From Strix aluco (Eukaryota > Chordata > Aves > Strigiformes > Strigidae): a stretch of DNA of 64,000 bases. The notes below the pieces were generated by a model, which did no database searches, was not told the origin of the DNA, and saw only the letters and a program-made list of their open reading frames with translations. Positions 10,101 through 57,755 of the stretch are shown here, one piece after another. The stretch lies in contig NC_133955.1 in the NCBI RefSeq assembly GCF_031877795.1, forward strand, positions 3,410,001 through 3,474,000. The letters are read 5' to 3'. The number at the start of each line of letters is the position of its first letter. Position 1 is the stretch's first letter. The translations under genes were made by a program, and so were the position numbers.

Positions 10101-13100
10101 CAGCAGGGTTGCTTCATTGCCTGAGTGTTTGCAGGGTCTCACTCTCTTCCTTGGTAATTTTTTTCTTCCTACTTTGCTTTGAGTCTGTTTTAACTCAAGT
10201 TTTCCATACGGGGAAACTCAGGAATGTTACTCAGCCCTCAGCTGAAAAGCAGATTATTTTGGCCATGCCACCGCTGCGTAGACACACTTGTCTGGTTAAA
10301 CCGGCCTTGCTTTAAGATCCCACTTTTTTGTTGGGTTTGCTTCAGGAATTGTGCGTGGCTGATCGGCAAGAGCTGCCTTCGGAGCTGCTGCTGGTGGGGC
10401 CACGTCACGGTGCGTGGGCCAGAGTGGTCTGATCTGAGGGGTATGGAGCATCTCAGCCCATCCCCAAGCAGGTGTCTATTGCTGTGGGGGGAGATTCATC
10501 TTCTAGAGGTTTCTCCATCAATTAGAGCCCGGCTAAAACTTCACACCTAACTTTTGGAGGGCTGACACTCTCTGTGCAGGACCCACACGGGTTTGTCCTT
10601 GGGGACACCCCTCAAGGATGCTCTCAGGAGGCTCAGAGCTGCCGGCACGTTACCGCCGGTGTCCAGGGCTGAGTTTTTCTCAAGCGTGACTCAGGCTGTC
10701 TCTGCTGCTGATTCACTCCAGCCGAGGACCCAGGCTGTTGTCTCCAACAGGCTCGTGGTGCAGCTGCCTGCTGAACGCAGCCCATCGGGTGGGTTTGATA
10801 GCAAAAGGTCGCATCCTGTTCGGTGCAGGCAGGCTGTGTAGCAGCAATGGGTGCTGTAGCAGGATCTGCTCCCAGGAAGCCAAACCCGCTGTGCTTTTGT
10901 GCTGGTGGAAGGTAGAAGAGCTTTTCTGCTTGGAGGCTTTTTTTTTCGGGGGCTCTTGGAAACAGATGCTCTGGGTAATGGACTCATCATGAGCTCATTC
11001 TGTCGGGGAGGAGGGCTGAGCAGGATTGATGGGGGGGGACGACAAAGTGTTTTCTTTCTGACACAGCCTGTGATTCCCACCGCGTGCTGCCAGCCCCTCC
11101 TCGCTCCCATCCGAGGCGAAGCGGCAGCGTGTCGCGGGGAGGAGGCAGCACGGAGGGGCCAAAGGTCTCACTGGTCAGGCAGAGGGGAGAAATGGGAGCA
11201 TCTGGTGTGTCACCAGGTCTGGGCATCCGCGGGACACTGAGCTCTGCCTGCTCCTCTCCTTCTTGTCCTGCCTTCTCAGTCCTGGGACTGTTCGTGGGCA
11301 CATTGTCCACCACTGACCCTTAGGGAGCAGGGACGGGGCAAAAGGACATCTCTGATACATCCAGACCCCAAACCTCACAGTCGTGAAGAGTGCGAACAGC
11401 TCATTGCAGGGGTGGGAGGGGTTGGGATGAATGTGGAGGAAAACTCTTTGACTTAGTCCTCTCAAAGTTCCCTTTTCATGTGTGTTCCCAGTGGGGGCTT
11501 GCTCCAAACCCAGGCTGTTGCAGGTCTCCCTTCATCCCCGTCACTGTCATTTCTGGCACATCTTCAGCCACAGCTGAAGCCCAGCACACCTTCCTAGTAC
11601 TTGGAGAAAGGTTCTGGAGTGGTGGGCCCAGACACTGAGGTTTGCTGTCAACTGATGGGGCAGGTCCAGGGAACCCTCTCTGTTCTCCATCCTTGGTCTT
11701 GGGGAAGTGGGTGGCAGCAGTGTAGCTCCTGGGGTGTTTTGAGCCTGTTGTACTCATTTTCATCAAGTGAGGGCTTCCCCCATCCCTGCTGTTGCTATTC
11801 ACTGGCAGGGGTTAGAAGAGATGCACCAAAGGCAGGTGACATCAGAAGTGTGTTTCAGGCTGCCCCAAAGTTGTTTTCATGGGGGTTCATAAAATTGTTG
11901 CTCTCCTCCAAAGAGGGGAGGTTGACCCAAATCAACGAATCAGGAGCAGTTGACCCAGATCAGCTAATGGTGTGTGCGATTTCTACTTTTGCAGGTAGTT
12001 GCTTTCGCCTCGCTTTTCTTCATCCTGGTCTCCATCACAACCTTCTGCCTGGAAACGCACGAGGCCTTCAACATCGACGTCAACGTGACGGAGACCCTTG
12101 TGGTTGGCAACACCACGACGATTCTGCTGACACATAAAGTGGAGACGGAGCCCATCCTTACCTACATTGAAGGGGTCTGTGTCCTGTGGTTCACCCTCGA
12201 GTTCCTGGTTCGCATCATCTGCTGTCCAGATAAGCTTCTCTTCGTTAAAAACCTGCTCAACATCATTGACTTTGTGGCCATCTTGCCCTTCTACCTGGAG
12301 GTAGGTCTCAGCGGCCTGTCCTCCAAAGCTGCTCGGGACGTACTGGGCTTCCTACGGGTGGTCCGTTTCGTCCGGATCCTCCGGATCTTCAAGCTGACAC
12401 GGCACTTTGTGGGTCTCCGGGTGCTGGGCCACACGCTCCGGGCCAGCACCAATGAATTCCTGCTCCTCATCATCTTCCTCGCCTTGGGGGTCTTGATTTT
12501 CGCCACTATGATCTACTACGCTGAGCGGATCGGAGCCAAGACGTCTGACCCTCGCGGGAGCGACCACACTCACTTTAAGAACATCCCCATCGGGTTCTGG
12601 TGGGCTGTGGTCACGATGACAACCCTGGGCTACGGCGACATGTACCCCAAGACCTGGTCGGGCATGGTGGTAGGGGCTCTCTGCGCGTTGGCTGGGGTGC
12701 TAACCATCGCCATGCCCGTGCCCGTCATTGTCAATAACTTTGGGATGTACTATTCGTTGGCCATGGCCAAGCAGAAGCTGCCAAAGAAGAAGAAAAAGCA
12801 TATACCCCGTCCGGCCCCGCTGGACTCCCCTACCTACTGCAAATCTGAGGAAAACTCCCCCCGTAACAGCACCCAGAGCGACACTTGCCCCTTGGCAGTA
12901 GAGGAGGGGGCAGCTGAGCGGAAACGGTCAGGTGAGACCCAAAAGATGGGGCAGAGGGAGGGGGAGAACTCCAGGAGCTCCCAAGGCAGCGTTTTTGGTC
13001 CCCTGGGTCGCAGAGTCCCTGAGGACTGCCCTGCTGCAGGACACAGCCCCCAGCTCTTGGGGTGGTGAGAACTTGGTGCAGAAAGGGCTGGGGCCCTTGG

Positions 13101-27116: not shown

Positions 27117-27148
27117 GCCCTGGCTGGATGCAGGCAGCGCCCCGGTGA

Positions 27149-27562
27149 GGGATGCCTTCCCCGAGGGATGCTCTCCCCGAGGGATGCCTTCCCCGAGGGA
27201 TGCTCGCCCCAAGGGATGCCTTCTTGGAGGCAGAGGGATGTGTGCCCCGAGGGATGCTTTCCCCAAGGTGGAGGGATGCTGTCCCTGAGGCTAAGGGATG
27301 CTTTCCCCAAGGGATGCGTTCCCCAAGGCTCAGGGATGCTCTCCCTGAGGCCAAGGGATGCTCTTCCTAAGGCTGAGCGATGCATTCCCCCAGGGGTGCT
27401 CTCCCCACAGCGCAGGGGGGCTCTCCCCGAGGCCAAGGGATGCATTTCCCAAGGGAGATGCTCTCTCCGAGGCCGAGGGATGCTCTCCCCAAAGCAGAGG
27501 GATGCTCTCCCCGAGGCTGGGACACGCATTCCCCCCGAGGCCAAGGGATGCTCCCCCAAGGA
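27149..27562 (+). repeat. Minisatellite of 16- and 22-bp units
   Basis: About 21 imperfect tandem units based on GGGATGCTCTCCCCGA (16 bp), many of them with a 6-base extension of the form GGCNNA (22 bp). The array starts four bases after the GT of a candidate donor and ends about 200 bases before a candidate acceptor. It lies in the 3' UTR of exon B or in a 3' UTR intron. Because few units contain stops it creates long spurious open frames on both strands. Confidence 0.9.
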
Positions 27563-53640: not shown

Positions 53641-54051
53641 CCCTCCTCCCTGCCGCTCCTCCTCAGGCTCCAGCACCCAGGAGGGGAGGGCCGGGTCCCG
53701 GGGCTGAGCCCGGTGCTGGCGGCCCAGAGGCCTGCGGGGCTCTGGTGTGTATTTCCCGGGGTGGACACGGAGAGGGCACCAGGCACAGGGCGGAACAGGC
53801 ACTGACTGCAGGCCGAGCTTTCGCTCCCTGCTCGAACGCTCTCTCCTTTCCCCCTCCGGTGAAGTTGAGCCCCAGCCCGCCCCGCTGGCGCTTATCCCCC
53901 GGCCGTTCGCGCGTCCCTGCGGGCTGAGGAGACGGGCGTAGACCACGCACCCGCCCACGCCCCCTCCCCGCCGCAGCCCGGCGCGCTCTGAGCCCTCAGC
54001 CGCGGCCGCACGGCAAACTCCGCCGGGGAACCGCCCTCTTCCCCTTTGCGA

Positions 54052-54736
54052 CCAATCAGAGTCAGAGAAAGCGTGACTGATCGCCACTGTAGCCTATCTG
54101 CAAGCTACCTGACTGCACTCAATCAGATGCCTGGGGAGATTTTTCTCGCCCAATGATAAACGAAGAGTGGAGCTTGGGTAGCAGCCCGCGCTTCTTCGGG
54201 AGCGGCGTAGACTTCAGCCAATCAGAGCAGCGCAGGGAAGGTTACCCCTGACCAATGAGGAAAGGGGGCGGGGAAAGAGGGGCTCGCGAGAATTTGAGAG
54301 GGACGATGGGAACCCGCGTCTAAGCTAGCGGGCCAATGGGAAAGGGCAGGGCGGGGCCGCAGCAGGACCATTATAACTGGCAGGTAAGAGAGCCAATCAG
54401 AAGAAGGAGGTACGTTCGGCCCAATGGTCAATGAGCAGGGGAAGTCCTCCCAGCGTTGAACTGCTACGATTGACAGGGATGCCCCCAATCAGAAGGCCGC
54501 GCCCTTTCTAACCGTCCAATGACCGAGCGAGGCGGGGAGGAGTGTGGCGAGGGGAGGCTCTTCCCGCCCCCTCCTCGCTGGCGCTCGAGGCCGGCCGGTG
54601 GAAGGACAGCCTGCTGAGCCAATTGAAAACGGCAAAGAGGGGGAGTGGGCGGGCCTTCCGCCCGGCGGGGGCGAGGGGGTGGGGGCGCCTCGCTCGGCGG
54701 CCAACGAGGGCGTCGGGCCGGCGCCGAGCGCCCAAT
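54052..54736 (+). promoter_or_regulatory. RBM15: Array of eleven CCAAT boxes in the RBM15 promoter
   Basis: CCAAT occurs at 54052, 54150, 54218, 54252, 54333, 54393, 54421, 54485, 54516, 54619 and 54732, always on the + strand. Four are CCAATCAGA and three CCAATGA, close to the NF-Y consensus. A decayed TCAATCAGA lies at 54119. About one CCAAT per strand would be expected by chance in this length. NF-Y (NF-YA/B/C) is the known main binder of CCAAT boxes in CpG-island promoters. Several gaps are close to 30 or 60-68 bases. Confidence 0.85.
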
Positions 54737-54774
54737 GGGCGCTGAGGGGGCGGGGCTCGCTGCCGCCGCGGCTT

Positions 54775-54787
54775 CCAAGATGGCGGC
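54775..54787 (+). promoter_or_regulatory. RBM15: YY1-type motif near the RBM15 transcription start
   Basis: CCAAGATGGCGGC matches the well-known YY1 motif that typically sits just downstream of transcription starts in housekeeping genes. It lies about 90-100 bases before the start codon, so the 5' UTR is probably about 100 bases. Its own ATG is out of frame with RBM15. Confidence 0.65.
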
Positions 54788-54875
54788 GGGTGCGTGAGCG
54801 CGGCGGTCAGTCAGTCGGTGAGGCCGCCGGCGGGAGCAGGGCCGGGGGCGGGTGGGGGCCCCGCCGCCCGCCGCC

Positions 54876-57755
54876 ATGAAGGGCAAGGAGCGCTCGCCGG
54901 CCAAAGCCAAGCGTTCGCGGGGCGGCGGGGGCGGCGAGGACTCGGCGTCGTCCTCATCGTCGGCGCGGGGCGAGCGGAGCAGCAAGAAGCCGAGCGGCTC
55001 CGGCGGCTCCAACGGCAGCGGCGGGAAAGCGGCGGCAGCGGCGGCCTCCACCGAGAGCAACAGCGGGAGCAGCCGGCGCGGCCCCCACCCGGAGAAGGCC
55101 GGCCGCGCCGGCAGCCGCGAGTACGAGGCCGGGGCGGCGGCGGCGGGCGGCGGGGGCAGCCGGCACGGCTACGGCGGCGGCAGCGGCAAAACCGCGGAGG
55201 CGTCGCGGAGCAGCAGCAGCCGCGGCGGCGGGGGTGAGTCCCGGGCGCCGGCAGCGGCCCCGTCCTCCTCCTCCTCCGAGTCGGGCGGCGGCGGGGAGTA
55301 CAAGACGCTGAAGATCAGCGAGCTGGGCTCGGCGCTGAGCGACGAGGCGGTGGAGGACGGGCTCTTCCACGAGTTCAAGCGCTTCGGCGACGTGAGCGTC
55401 AAAATCAGCCGCCTCCCGCCCGGTACCGGCGCCGCCGACGAGCGCGTGGCCTTTGTCAACTTCCGCCGGCCCGAGGACGCCCGCGCCGCCAAGCACGCCC
55501 GCGGCCGCCTCGTGCTCTACGACCGCCCGCTGAAAATTGAGGCCGTCTACGTCGGAGGCGGTGGAGGGAGCAGCCGGCGACGCAGCAGCCGTTCCCCGGC
55601 GCTGCTGGACAAGGAGTCTCCCTACGGCACGGCAGCCGTCGGGGTGGCGGCCGCGGCGGCAGCGGCTGTGCGGCACCCTCCGGCTGGGGCGACGCAACGG
55701 GCCTTGTCACCCGCTGGGAGCGGCGGGGCCCTGGGTTATCGAGACTACCGGCTGCAGCAGCTCGCCCTGGGCCGCTTGCCGCCTCCGCCCCCTCTGCCCA
55801 GGGAGTTGGAGAGGGAGAGGGACTACGGGGGTTTCTACGAAGCGCGAGTGCGGCCGGCCTACGGGCTGGAGCGGGTGGCTGGTGTGGCAGCTGCCGGGGG
55901 CTTTCGTGGAGGAGGAGGGGGTGCTGGAGCTGCCGGTGAGGAGGAGATCAGCCCGGAGGATGACCAGAGGGCCAACCGCACGTTGTTCCTGGGCAACCTG
56001 GACATCACCGTGAGCGAGTCAGATCTACGCCGAGCTTTTGACCGTTTTGGGGTCATTACTGAGGTGGACATCAAAAGGCCGGGGCGCGGGCAGACCAGCA
56101 CGTATGGTTTTCTTAAATTTGAAAATCTGGACATGGCGCACCGGGCCAAGTTGGCCATGTCAGGAAAGGTGCTTCTGCGCAACCCCATCAAGATTGGGTA
56201 TGGTAAAGCCACTCCAACTACCAGGCTCTGGGTGGGTGGCCTTGGGCCCTGGGTGCCCCTCGCTGCCCTGGCCAGGGAGTTTGATCGGTTTGGCACCATT
56301 CGCACTATCGATTACCGCAAAGGTGATTCGTGGGCCTATATCCAGTATGAGAGCTTGGACGCGGCGCAGGCAGCATGCACCCACATGCGTGGTTTTCCCT
56401 TGGGTGGGCCCGATCGCCGGCTCCGCGTAGACTTTGCTGACACTGAGCATCGGTACCAGCAGCCCTACCTGCAGCCTCTGCCCTTGCCACCCCCTGCTCA
56501 TTATGAGCTCGTGGCGGAGGCGGCTGCTTTTGGGGCTCACCGGGGAGCCCCACCTGATCCTCTTCGGGGGGCCCGGGACAGGACGCCACCGTTACTTTAT
56601 AGAGACCGCGACAGAGACCTTTATCCTGAGACAGAGTGGGTGCCCCCCCCACCCCCTGTTCGGGACAGGAGTAATCGGGCAGCTGCCTATGACCCACTGG
56701 AAAGCCTCGAGCGACGCCGGGACGGCTGGTCCTTGGAGCGGGACCGAGGGGAGAGGGAATTGGGCAGTAGTAGTAGGGATCAGCCTAGGAAACGGAGACT
56801 GGCAGAGGACGGAGGCCGGCACTTGGACCGCTCTCCAGACAGCGAGCGCTCTTCTTCCTCCCGTAAGCGTCACTGTTTAGCCACAACCTCTCCACCGGAC
56901 CGCAGCCCCGAGCTCCTTGGAGGGAGGGAGCGTTACAGCAGTGACCCCGAGCGCTCATCCTCCCGCTTGCTCCTGTTGGAGCGGCCCTCGCCTGTACGGG
57001 AATCGCGCCGGGGCAGCCTGGAGCGGGGTCAGAACGAAAAACGCGACCGCAAGAATTCCGCCGAACGGGAGCGGAAACATCGCGCTTCCACGGCAGCCGC
57101 TGCGCAGGAGTGCAAAAGTCCAGCCAAAAAGGATGAGCGCGCTGTGGAAGGAGGCGGCGGAGGCTCCCGCCTCAAACCTCCTCCTCAGAAACAGCAGCAG
57201 GATGGAGTGTCACAGGCCGGGGGAGCCCCCAAGCTGTGCTTGGCTTGGCAGGGGATGCTTCTGCTGAAGAACAGCAACTTCCCGTCCAATATGCATCTGC
57301 TTCAGGGGGACCTCGGTGTTGCCAGCAGTCTCCTCGTGGAGGGAGCGACTGGTGGGAAAGTAGCTCAGCTCAAGATCACCCAACGTCTTCGTCTGGACCA
57401 GCCCAAGCTAGATGAGGTCAATCGTCGCATCAAAGTGGCGGGTCCCAATGGCTACGCCATCCTTTTGGCTGTGCCTGGCGCATCAGACAACCGCTCCGCA
57501 GCCGGAGCTAGCGAGGCCGCCACCACCTCCACCCAGAGGCCACTCAGGAATCTGGTGTCCTATCTAAAGCAAAAGCAGGCTGCTGGGGTGATCAGCCTCC
57601 CTGTGGGGGGTAACAAAGACAAGGAGAACAGCGGGGTCCTGCACGCCTTTCCACCCTGTGATTTCTCCCAGCAGTTCCTGGACTCCACGGCCAAGGCGCT
57701 GGCCAAATCAGAGGACGACTATCTGGTCATGATCATTGTCCGTGGGGCGTCCTAA
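54876..57755 (+). CDS. RBM15: RBM15, spen-family RNA-binding protein (intronless frame)
   Basis: 959 residues starting MKGKERSPAKAKRSRGG in a good Kozak context (GCCGCCATGA). An in-frame TGA at 54819-54821 rules out a longer unspliced N-terminus. RBM15 is a nuclear adaptor that brings the m6A writer complex to RNAs and acts in RNA export, splicing and blood-cell development. Domains: a Ser/Gly/Ala-rich N-terminus (about 15-140); RRM1 (about 143-226, ERVAFVNF); RRM2 (about 369-447, TLFLGNLDI and TYGFLKFENL); RRM3 (about 451-530, RLWVGGLGPW and WAYIQYES); an Arg/Ser/Asp-rich middle (about 560-770); and a SPOC domain (about 782-957) starting PKLCLAWQGMLLLKNSNFP. It ends VMIIVRGAS, like a short mammalian isoform. 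Its length is close to human RBM15 (about 970). The RBM15B paralogue is less likely, given the N-terminus and synteny. Confidence 0.97.
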   Translation: MKGKERSPAKAKRSRGGGGGEDSASSSSSARGERSSKKPSGSGGSNGSGGKAAAAAASTESNSGSSRRGPHPEKAGRAGSREYEAGAAAAGGGGSRHGYGGGSGKTAEASRSSSSRGGGGESRAPAAAPSSSSSESGGGGEYKTLKISELGSALSDEAVEDGLFHEFKRFGDVSVKISRLPPGTGAADERVAFVNFRRPEDARAAKHARGRLVLYDRPLKIEAVYVGGGGGSSRRRSSRSPALLDKESPYGTAAVGVAAAAAAAVRHPPAGATQRALSPAGSGGALGYRDYRLQQLALGRLPPPPPLPRELERERDYGGFYEARVRPAYGLERVAGVAAAGGFRGGGGGAGAAGEEEISPEDDQRANRTLFLGNLDITVSESDLRRAFDRFGVITEVDIKRPGRGQTSTYGFLKFENLDMAHRAKLAMSGKVLLRNPIKIGYGKATPTTRLWVGGLGPWVPLAALAREFDRFGTIRTIDYRKGDSWAYIQYESLDAAQAACTHMRGFPLGGPDRRLRVDFADTEHRYQQPYLQPLPLPPPAHYELVAEAAAFGAHRGAPPDPLRGARDRTPPLLYRDRDRDLYPETEWVPPPPPVRDRSNRAAAYDPLESLERRRDGWSLERDRGERELGSSSRDQPRKRRLAEDGGRHLDRSPDSERSSSSRKRHCLATTSPPDRSPELLGGRERYSSDPERSSSRLLLLERPSPVRESRRGSLERGQNEKRDRKNSAERERKHRASTAAAAQECKSPAKKDERAVEGGGGGSRLKPPPQKQQQDGVSQAGGAPKLCLAWQGMLLLKNSNFPSNMHLLQGDLGVASSLLVEGATGGKVAQLKITQRLRLDQPKLDEVNRRIKVAGPNGYAILLAVPGASDNRSAAGASEAATTSTQRPLRNLVSYLKQKQAAGVISLPVGGNKDKENSGVLHAFPPCDFSQQFLDSTAKALAKSEDDYLVMIIVRGAS

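Follow-up and report, generated by a model that had tools for sequence, protein, structure and literature searches.

The window, a stretch of 64 kb of Strix aluco DNA, contains a forward coding frame with the domain set of an RNA-binding protein, and we take this gene to be RBM15, a name that the domains fit. When the genome (1.41 Gb, 202 contigs) was searched, one other strong match was obtained, 53% identical and located on contig C11, which was taken as RBM15B, together with one further weak match on contig C30. One scan of a prokaryote collection with the RBM15 protein gave no relative, as expected. An ion-channel frame lies upstream at 11974-13068 in the same orientation as RBM15 and fits the gene order KCNC4-RBM15 in human. 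Directly before the gene we find a CpG island with GC boxes, and in it a long array of CCAAT boxes, the last of which is followed after 140 bp by the ATG at 54876. The individual sites are the following.

54052-54056, forward strand: CCAAT box 1, CCAATCAGA, strong flank (exact match)
54119-54123, forward strand: near site TCAAT(CAGA), 31 bp 5′ of box 2
54150-54154, forward strand: CCAAT box 2, CCAATGATA (exact match)
54218-54222, forward strand: CCAAT box 3, CCAATCAGA, strong flank; opens the sole strong triple found at RBM15
54252-54256, forward strand: CCAAT box 4, CCAATGAGG, strong flank, 34 bp 3′ of box 3
54333-54337, forward strand: CCAAT box 5, CCAATGGGA, strong flank (exact match)
54393-54397, forward strand: CCAAT box 6, CCAATCAGA, strong flank (exact match)
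54421-54425, forward strand: CCAAT box 7, CCAATGGTC, 28 bp 3′ of box 6 (exact match)
54428 (start), forward strand: near site TCAATGAGC, one mismatch, 7 bp 3′ of box 7
54469, reverse strand: one-mismatch TCAAT
54485-54489, forward strand: CCAAT box 8, CCAATCAGA, strong flank (exact match)
54516-54520, forward strand: CCAAT box 9, CCAATGACC, 31 bp 3′ of box 8 (exact match)
54619-54623, forward strand: CCAAT box 10, CCAATTGAA, weak flank (exact match)
54622, reverse strand: one-mismatch TCAAT, overlapping box 10
54701-54705, forward strand: near site CCAAC(GAGG), CCAACGAGG, 31 bp 5′ of box 11
54732-54736, forward strand: CCAAT box 11, CCAATGGGC, strong flank, 44 bp 5′ of the YY1-type tag (start to start)
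54776-54789, forward strand: YY1-type motif CAAGATGGCGGCGG, start-site tag (145 genome copies against 4 of the reversed control)
54876-57755, forward strand: RBM15 coding frame from its ATG, with three RRM stretches and a SPOC domain

Counting exact matches between 54000 and 54800 gave eleven CCAATs on the forward strand and not a single ATTGG, as the initial annotation had claimed. All eleven starts had been placed correctly, the ten gaps between them came out identical on recounting, the common flank CCAATCAGA is indeed present four times in the array, and the decayed copy described at 54119 is there and reads TCAATCAGA. The near sites at 54428 and 54701 and the reverse-strand sites at 54469 and 54622 were absent from that annotation. 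The forward near sites (54119, 54428 and 54701) have good 3′ flanks, while the reverse-strand ones limit the one-way orientation rule to the exact boxes.

Box 11, a GC box and the YY1-type tag form an ordinary core, and the ten upstream boxes are the unusual part. We take the tag CAAGATGGCGGCGG at 54776 to be a YY1 site and its position to be near the start site; only one copy lies within 53900-54900. Besides RBM15, 22 places of the genome have a CCAAT at 35-65 bp before such a tag, and among the 21 tagged CCAAT places with letters shown, seven begin with CCAATGGG, RBM15 included. Counted genome-wide at 35-65 bp before the tag AAGATGGCGGC, CCAAT and ATTGG are about equally frequent (23 and 24, both numbers containing apparent repeated copies), which shows that the orientation of a single box is free.

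The array of CCAATs upstream of RBM15 is real and strongly non-random. The window as a whole is CCAAT-poor, with 63 copies on both strands against 163 expected from shuffles, and 11 of the 63 are concentrated in the array, hence in about 1% of the window. Under a first-order Markov model of 801 bp we expected 0.54 forward and 0.71 reverse copies, and none of 5000 simulations reached 11. The second-order model, which itself already holds much of the CCAAT signal, gave a mean of 2.05 and a maximum of 10, so that again 0 of 5000 simulations reached 11. For the extended motif CCAATSRG the array contains seven copies against 0.08 expected, with a maximum of two in 5000 simulations. The claim that both number and spacing of the sites are non-random was borne out, the spacing being more even than random, as detailed below.

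The NF-Y consensus is RRCCAATSRG. The 3′ flank SRG is found at 7 of the 11 array CCAATs but at only 3 of the 52 elsewhere in the window (P = 6e-5), and this preference agrees with the earlier assignment of the boxes as NF-Y-type sites; at the other four boxes the SRG flank is missing. Aligned copies agree after CCAAT in the order S, R, mostly G, mostly A, R, and a purine-rich stretch at +12 to +16 is partly common to them. On the 5′ side, a purine stands at -2 in 10 of 11 boxes, with little agreement farther upstream.

Neighbouring exact boxes are 28-113 bp apart, measured start to start, with a mean spacing of 68 bp. When the sites were placed at random 200,000 times between the same end points, a minimum gap of at least 28 bp appeared in 1.0% of the placements (P = 0.010), a maximum gap of at most 113 bp in 0.9% (P = 0.009), and both together in 0.12% (P = 0.0012). 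A coefficient of variation of the gaps as low as the observed one was reached in 0.6% (P = 0.006). The low variation and the bounded gaps show that the array is more even than random. The eleven exact boxes are all in one orientation, with a binomial P of 0.001 if the sites are independent. Both the orientation and the spacing tests were devised post hoc, with the array already seen; the limit of 24 bp that NF-Y needs per copy (Haubrock 2016, PMC4982600) is independent of it. The exact boxes, with their minimum of 28 bp, are thus spaced widely enough for simultaneous occupancy, while the near site 7 bp after box 7, at 54428, falls below the limit. With a footprint of 26 bp per box, 286 of the 707 bases of the array would be covered.

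The rhythm of about 30 bp described in the initial annotation is weakly supported. Gaps of 28-34 bp do occur, accounting for 3 of the 10 between exact sites (P = 0.08), and one gap measures exactly 31 bp (P = 0.15). After addition of the three near sites, five gaps fall in the 28-34 bp range (P = 0.019) and three pairs have a distance of exactly 31 bp (P = 0.002), P values that are weakened because the inclusion of near sites is a free choice. Overall helical phasing of the 11 exact sites was looked for at five periods from 10.0 to 11.0 and seen at none of them (Rayleigh p 0.32-0.79).

Among the CpG islands and tagged promoters that we sampled, the RBM15 array is a strong outlier. We scored 22 CpG islands in 264 kb of the same contig, and in none of the other 21 does a strand hold more than three CCAATs in 700 bp, with the flanks counted in; in a 23rd island, located at 5.0 Mb, the maximum is one. 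As a further control we used 18 places that bear CAAGATGGCGGCGG, all on contigs C17-C21, plus RBM15B on C11. The 18 were drawn from 98 of the 145 copies with two near-duplicates dropped; one motif chose all of them, and the promoter status of each is deduced from this tag. In the 750 bp upstream, these 18 places and RBM15B contain together 4 forward and 6 reverse CCAATs, with at most two per strand each. At 9 of the 18 the CpG ratio of the scored 750 bp is below 0.65, which makes this a mixed control in which some members are maybe not CpG-island promoters. The RBM15B promoter shows the YY1-type tag, one ATTGG and zero CCAAT in 750 bp (L030:62-811, C11), and the array is consequently not common to both paralogues in the genome. 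The densest place besides RBM15 in the 360 kb examined has four CCAATs. A density check on other CpG-island promoters had been proposed in the initial annotation; in this small sample a similar density was not seen, and its view of the array was not refuted.

From these data we suggest that the region 54040-54750 is the RBM15 proximal promoter and that it probably works as a long tiled NF-Y platform, which would keep about 700 bp nucleosome-free and fix the start site. In this reading the sites with their flanks, spacing and orientation are observed, while occupancy by NF-Y, openness of the chromatin and both the control and the position of the start site are inferred. NF-Y trimers resemble histone H2A/H2B. 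They would occupy many boxes simultaneously, which is possible because the exact neighbours keep the 28 bp or more noted above. A nucleosome core comprises 147 bp. Since the largest gap is 113 bp, there would be no room for a nucleosome between the boxes if all are bound. The filled array would hence keep open a length of some four nucleosomes and would block upstream initiation, so that RNA polymerase would start at the CCAAT/GC-box/YY1-type core just before the gene. With the common orientation, every trimer would show the same face, as in known CCAAT direct repeats.

The array is an extreme member of a known promoter type and not a new kind of element. The TOP2A promoter, which carries five inverted CCAAT boxes, resembles it as a multi-box NF-Y promoter but differs from the eleven forward boxes at RBM15. 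As in the promoters described by Haubrock 2016 (PMC4982600), we see several direct CCAATs in a proximal promoter, spaced by at least 24 bp and with some pairs at about 31 bp. In that NF-Y/c-Fos class, the distances within CCAAT pairs peak at 31 bp and have maxima every 10-11 bp (PMC4982600), whereas the RBM15 array has eleven boxes, its mean spacing of 68 bp and no overall phasing. Direct CCAAT repeats are reported as far commoner than inverted ones in NF-Y/c-Fos promoters (Haubrock 2016, PMC4982600), showing that the orientation bias of our array is of a known kind. Oldfield 2019 (PMC6624317) describes that NF-Y maintains a nucleosome-depleted region and suppresses upstream starts, and that promoters whose start shifts upstream on NF-YA loss contain more CCAATs in 1 kb. 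The putative RBM15 promoter is like these in having many CCAATs within 1 kb upstream.

Sp2 and NF-Y are reported to meet mainly at tandem CCAATs, where they support each other's binding, and two CCAAT/ATTGG motifs at a distance of 30-50 nt occur in about 40% of the Sp2-specific promoters (PMC4368557). Tandem CCAATs are also present at RBM15, but just two of the ten neighbouring gaps (34 and 31) are within 30-50 bp. Finally, LTR12 is described as carrying 5-17 copies of a unit of about 41 bp with CCAAT (PMC11853044). LTR12/ERV9 and the RBM15 array share a long same-strand CCAAT run; while the former, as described, is mobile and a tandem of about 41 bp, the latter is aperiodic, sits in a CpG island and gave no second copy in the genome search.

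One alternative that we consider less likely, yet would take seriously, is that the boxes serve separate start sites, either of upstream alternative first exons or of an antisense transcript, with two to three CCAATs each and no cooperating platform. The usual CCAAT zone is -60 to -100, and the array, which spans 680 bp, reaches far beyond it. Gaps of 81-113 bp could divide it into modules, and the antisense RNA that we take to adjoin human RBM15 also counts for such an arrangement. However, the exact boxes all point in one orientation, a divergent inverted set is absent, and the single YY1-type tag in 53900-54900 argues against several starts.

A second alternative concerns the origin of the boxes. 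The initial annotation had suggested growth of the array by duplication, and this claim found no support, as Tandem Repeats Finder (score 50) reported no tandem repeat in 54000-54800 and what the copies have in common is mainly the motif. A single exact direct repeat was reported, the 11-nt AGCCAATCAGA, which is again the motif; the other direct repeats in the stretch measure 25-27 nt at 70-75% identity, or are shorter. Outside the motif the flank identity is 0.31 versus 0.27 at random positions (P = 0.012), an excess that may reflect the common purine-rich 3′ side. A duplication origin is therefore unsupported, though this excess and the imperfect 25-27-nt repeats lean toward it. Independent gain and retention of the boxes would fit better than duplication, and selection on the array may be argued, solely from the flanks and the spacing.

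The same imperfect repeats and excess of flank identity, together with the four boxes without an SRG flank, speak for a pile-up that arose by chance or neutrally, such as local duplication could leave behind, with no box in use but the one nearest the gene. We judge this to be improbable. None of 5000 simulations reached 11 boxes, a tandem repeat was not detected, the sole reported exact repeat is the 11-nt motif, and 7 of the 11 boxes do have the SRG flank.

Still more doubtful, and a reading to which we give very little weight, is that another CCAAT-reading protein (NF-I, C/EBP, PBX/MEIS or YB-1) is the real ligand. The motif CCAATCA is part of PBX-type sites, one MEIS-like TGACAG is found at 54471 and GCCAAT occurs at four array sites, all of which would count for such a ligand, but the flank preference at the boxes is of the NF-Y type. 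Within 54030-54780 neither the NF-I palindrome nor the C/EBP-like pattern gave a match, the ER-stress module CCAAT-N9-CCACG was not found, and the CHR (cell-cycle) pattern in the form we used had no match in the array region. Stress and cell-cycle modules as well as NF-I and C/EBP as readers were dropped for this lack of pattern matches. Among the papers listed for RBM15 with NF-Y or NFYA, none is a study of NF-Y at RBM15.

That the stretch is an inserted mobile element, comparable to human LTR12 with its NF-Y repeats, is scarcely credible: other arrays in the genome do show a 41-bp step and the LTR12 unit is about 41 bp, but the 741-bp stretch matched only itself in the genome (in a search that passes over simple repeats and words of very high frequency), a tandem unit was not detected and the stretch sits in a CpG island. 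This origin was rejected because the genome DNA search gave the self match alone.

Returning to the tiled NF-Y platform, joint binding of the boxes, if it occurs, would point to control of the dosage of the m6A writer RBM15. The array would then be a natural, tandem-repeat-free array for asking how many NF-Y trimers hold a promoter open, and it would equally suit the questions of how many are needed for start fixing and what role orientation has. If instead the proximal box works alone, the array would warn that motifs can be densely packed and still be idle. RBM15 is also a cofactor of X-inactivation. Because RBM15 is an m6A writer, its promoter could mark its own RNA. RBM15 is counted among the m6A writers in PMC6540575, and NF-Y sites recruit CEBPZ, whose own sites overlap NF-Y to 46% and 59% in two cell lines according to the NF-Y regulome paper. 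A review describes that CEBPZ bound at promoters brings in METTL3 and in this way drives co-transcriptional m6A. As a hypothesis only, and a very long shot, the array might let an m6A-writer gene mark its own transcript in the order NF-Y, CEBPZ, METTL3, giving a feedback loop that tunes the writer levels.

The RBM15 array is not the richest in the genome, since at least three places have more strong sites. In a genome-wide search for triples of strong sites (CCAATSRG) with gaps of 20-50 and 50-80 bp, we obtained 90 matches in 37 places, against 19 matches for the reversed control. RBM15, with seven strong sites overall, is one of 22 single-match places in this search, and its rank among the arrays of the genome rests on this one spacing class. 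More strong sites than at RBM15 were found at places on C1 (at least 17), C15 (at least 12) and C28 (at least 10), while one place on C16 and two places on C27 have at least seven each. The steps are 41 bp on C1 and C15, 39 bp at one C27 place and near 41 on C16, and these regular 39-41-bp steps look like tandem repeats. The C28 array has steps of 33-41 bp, and the second C27 place is irregular.

Two irregular same-strand arrays of strong CCAATs, C28:1315064-1315405 (reverse strand, at least 10 sites) and C27:7478360-7479024 (reverse strand, at least seven sites), could be candidate promoter platforms comparable to, or denser than, that of RBM15. Six same-strand CCAATSRG arrays on five contigs have steps of 39-43 bp or near multiples, the largest with at least 17 strong sites (C1:169688363-169689161, C15:16878256-16878714, C8:11798588-11798961, C16:2231487-2231780, C16:11335259-11335559 and C27:7318786-7319025). 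A step of this size recalls human LTR12, in which the NF-Y repeats measure 41 bp.

Many of the listed genome-search matches come from an interspersed repeat of about 380 bp, whose copies are 87-93% alike (L002:1303-1677, L003:1373-1750 and L006:1295-1675) and which carries a direct CCAAT pair 43-45 bp apart. One copy has a 28-bp end that, taken in reverse, matches the opposite end of another copy, a pattern expected of terminal inverted repeats. The window itself contains a minisatellite at 27147-27561, whose units measure about 16-22 bp and which also shows higher-order periods of 32-82 bp.
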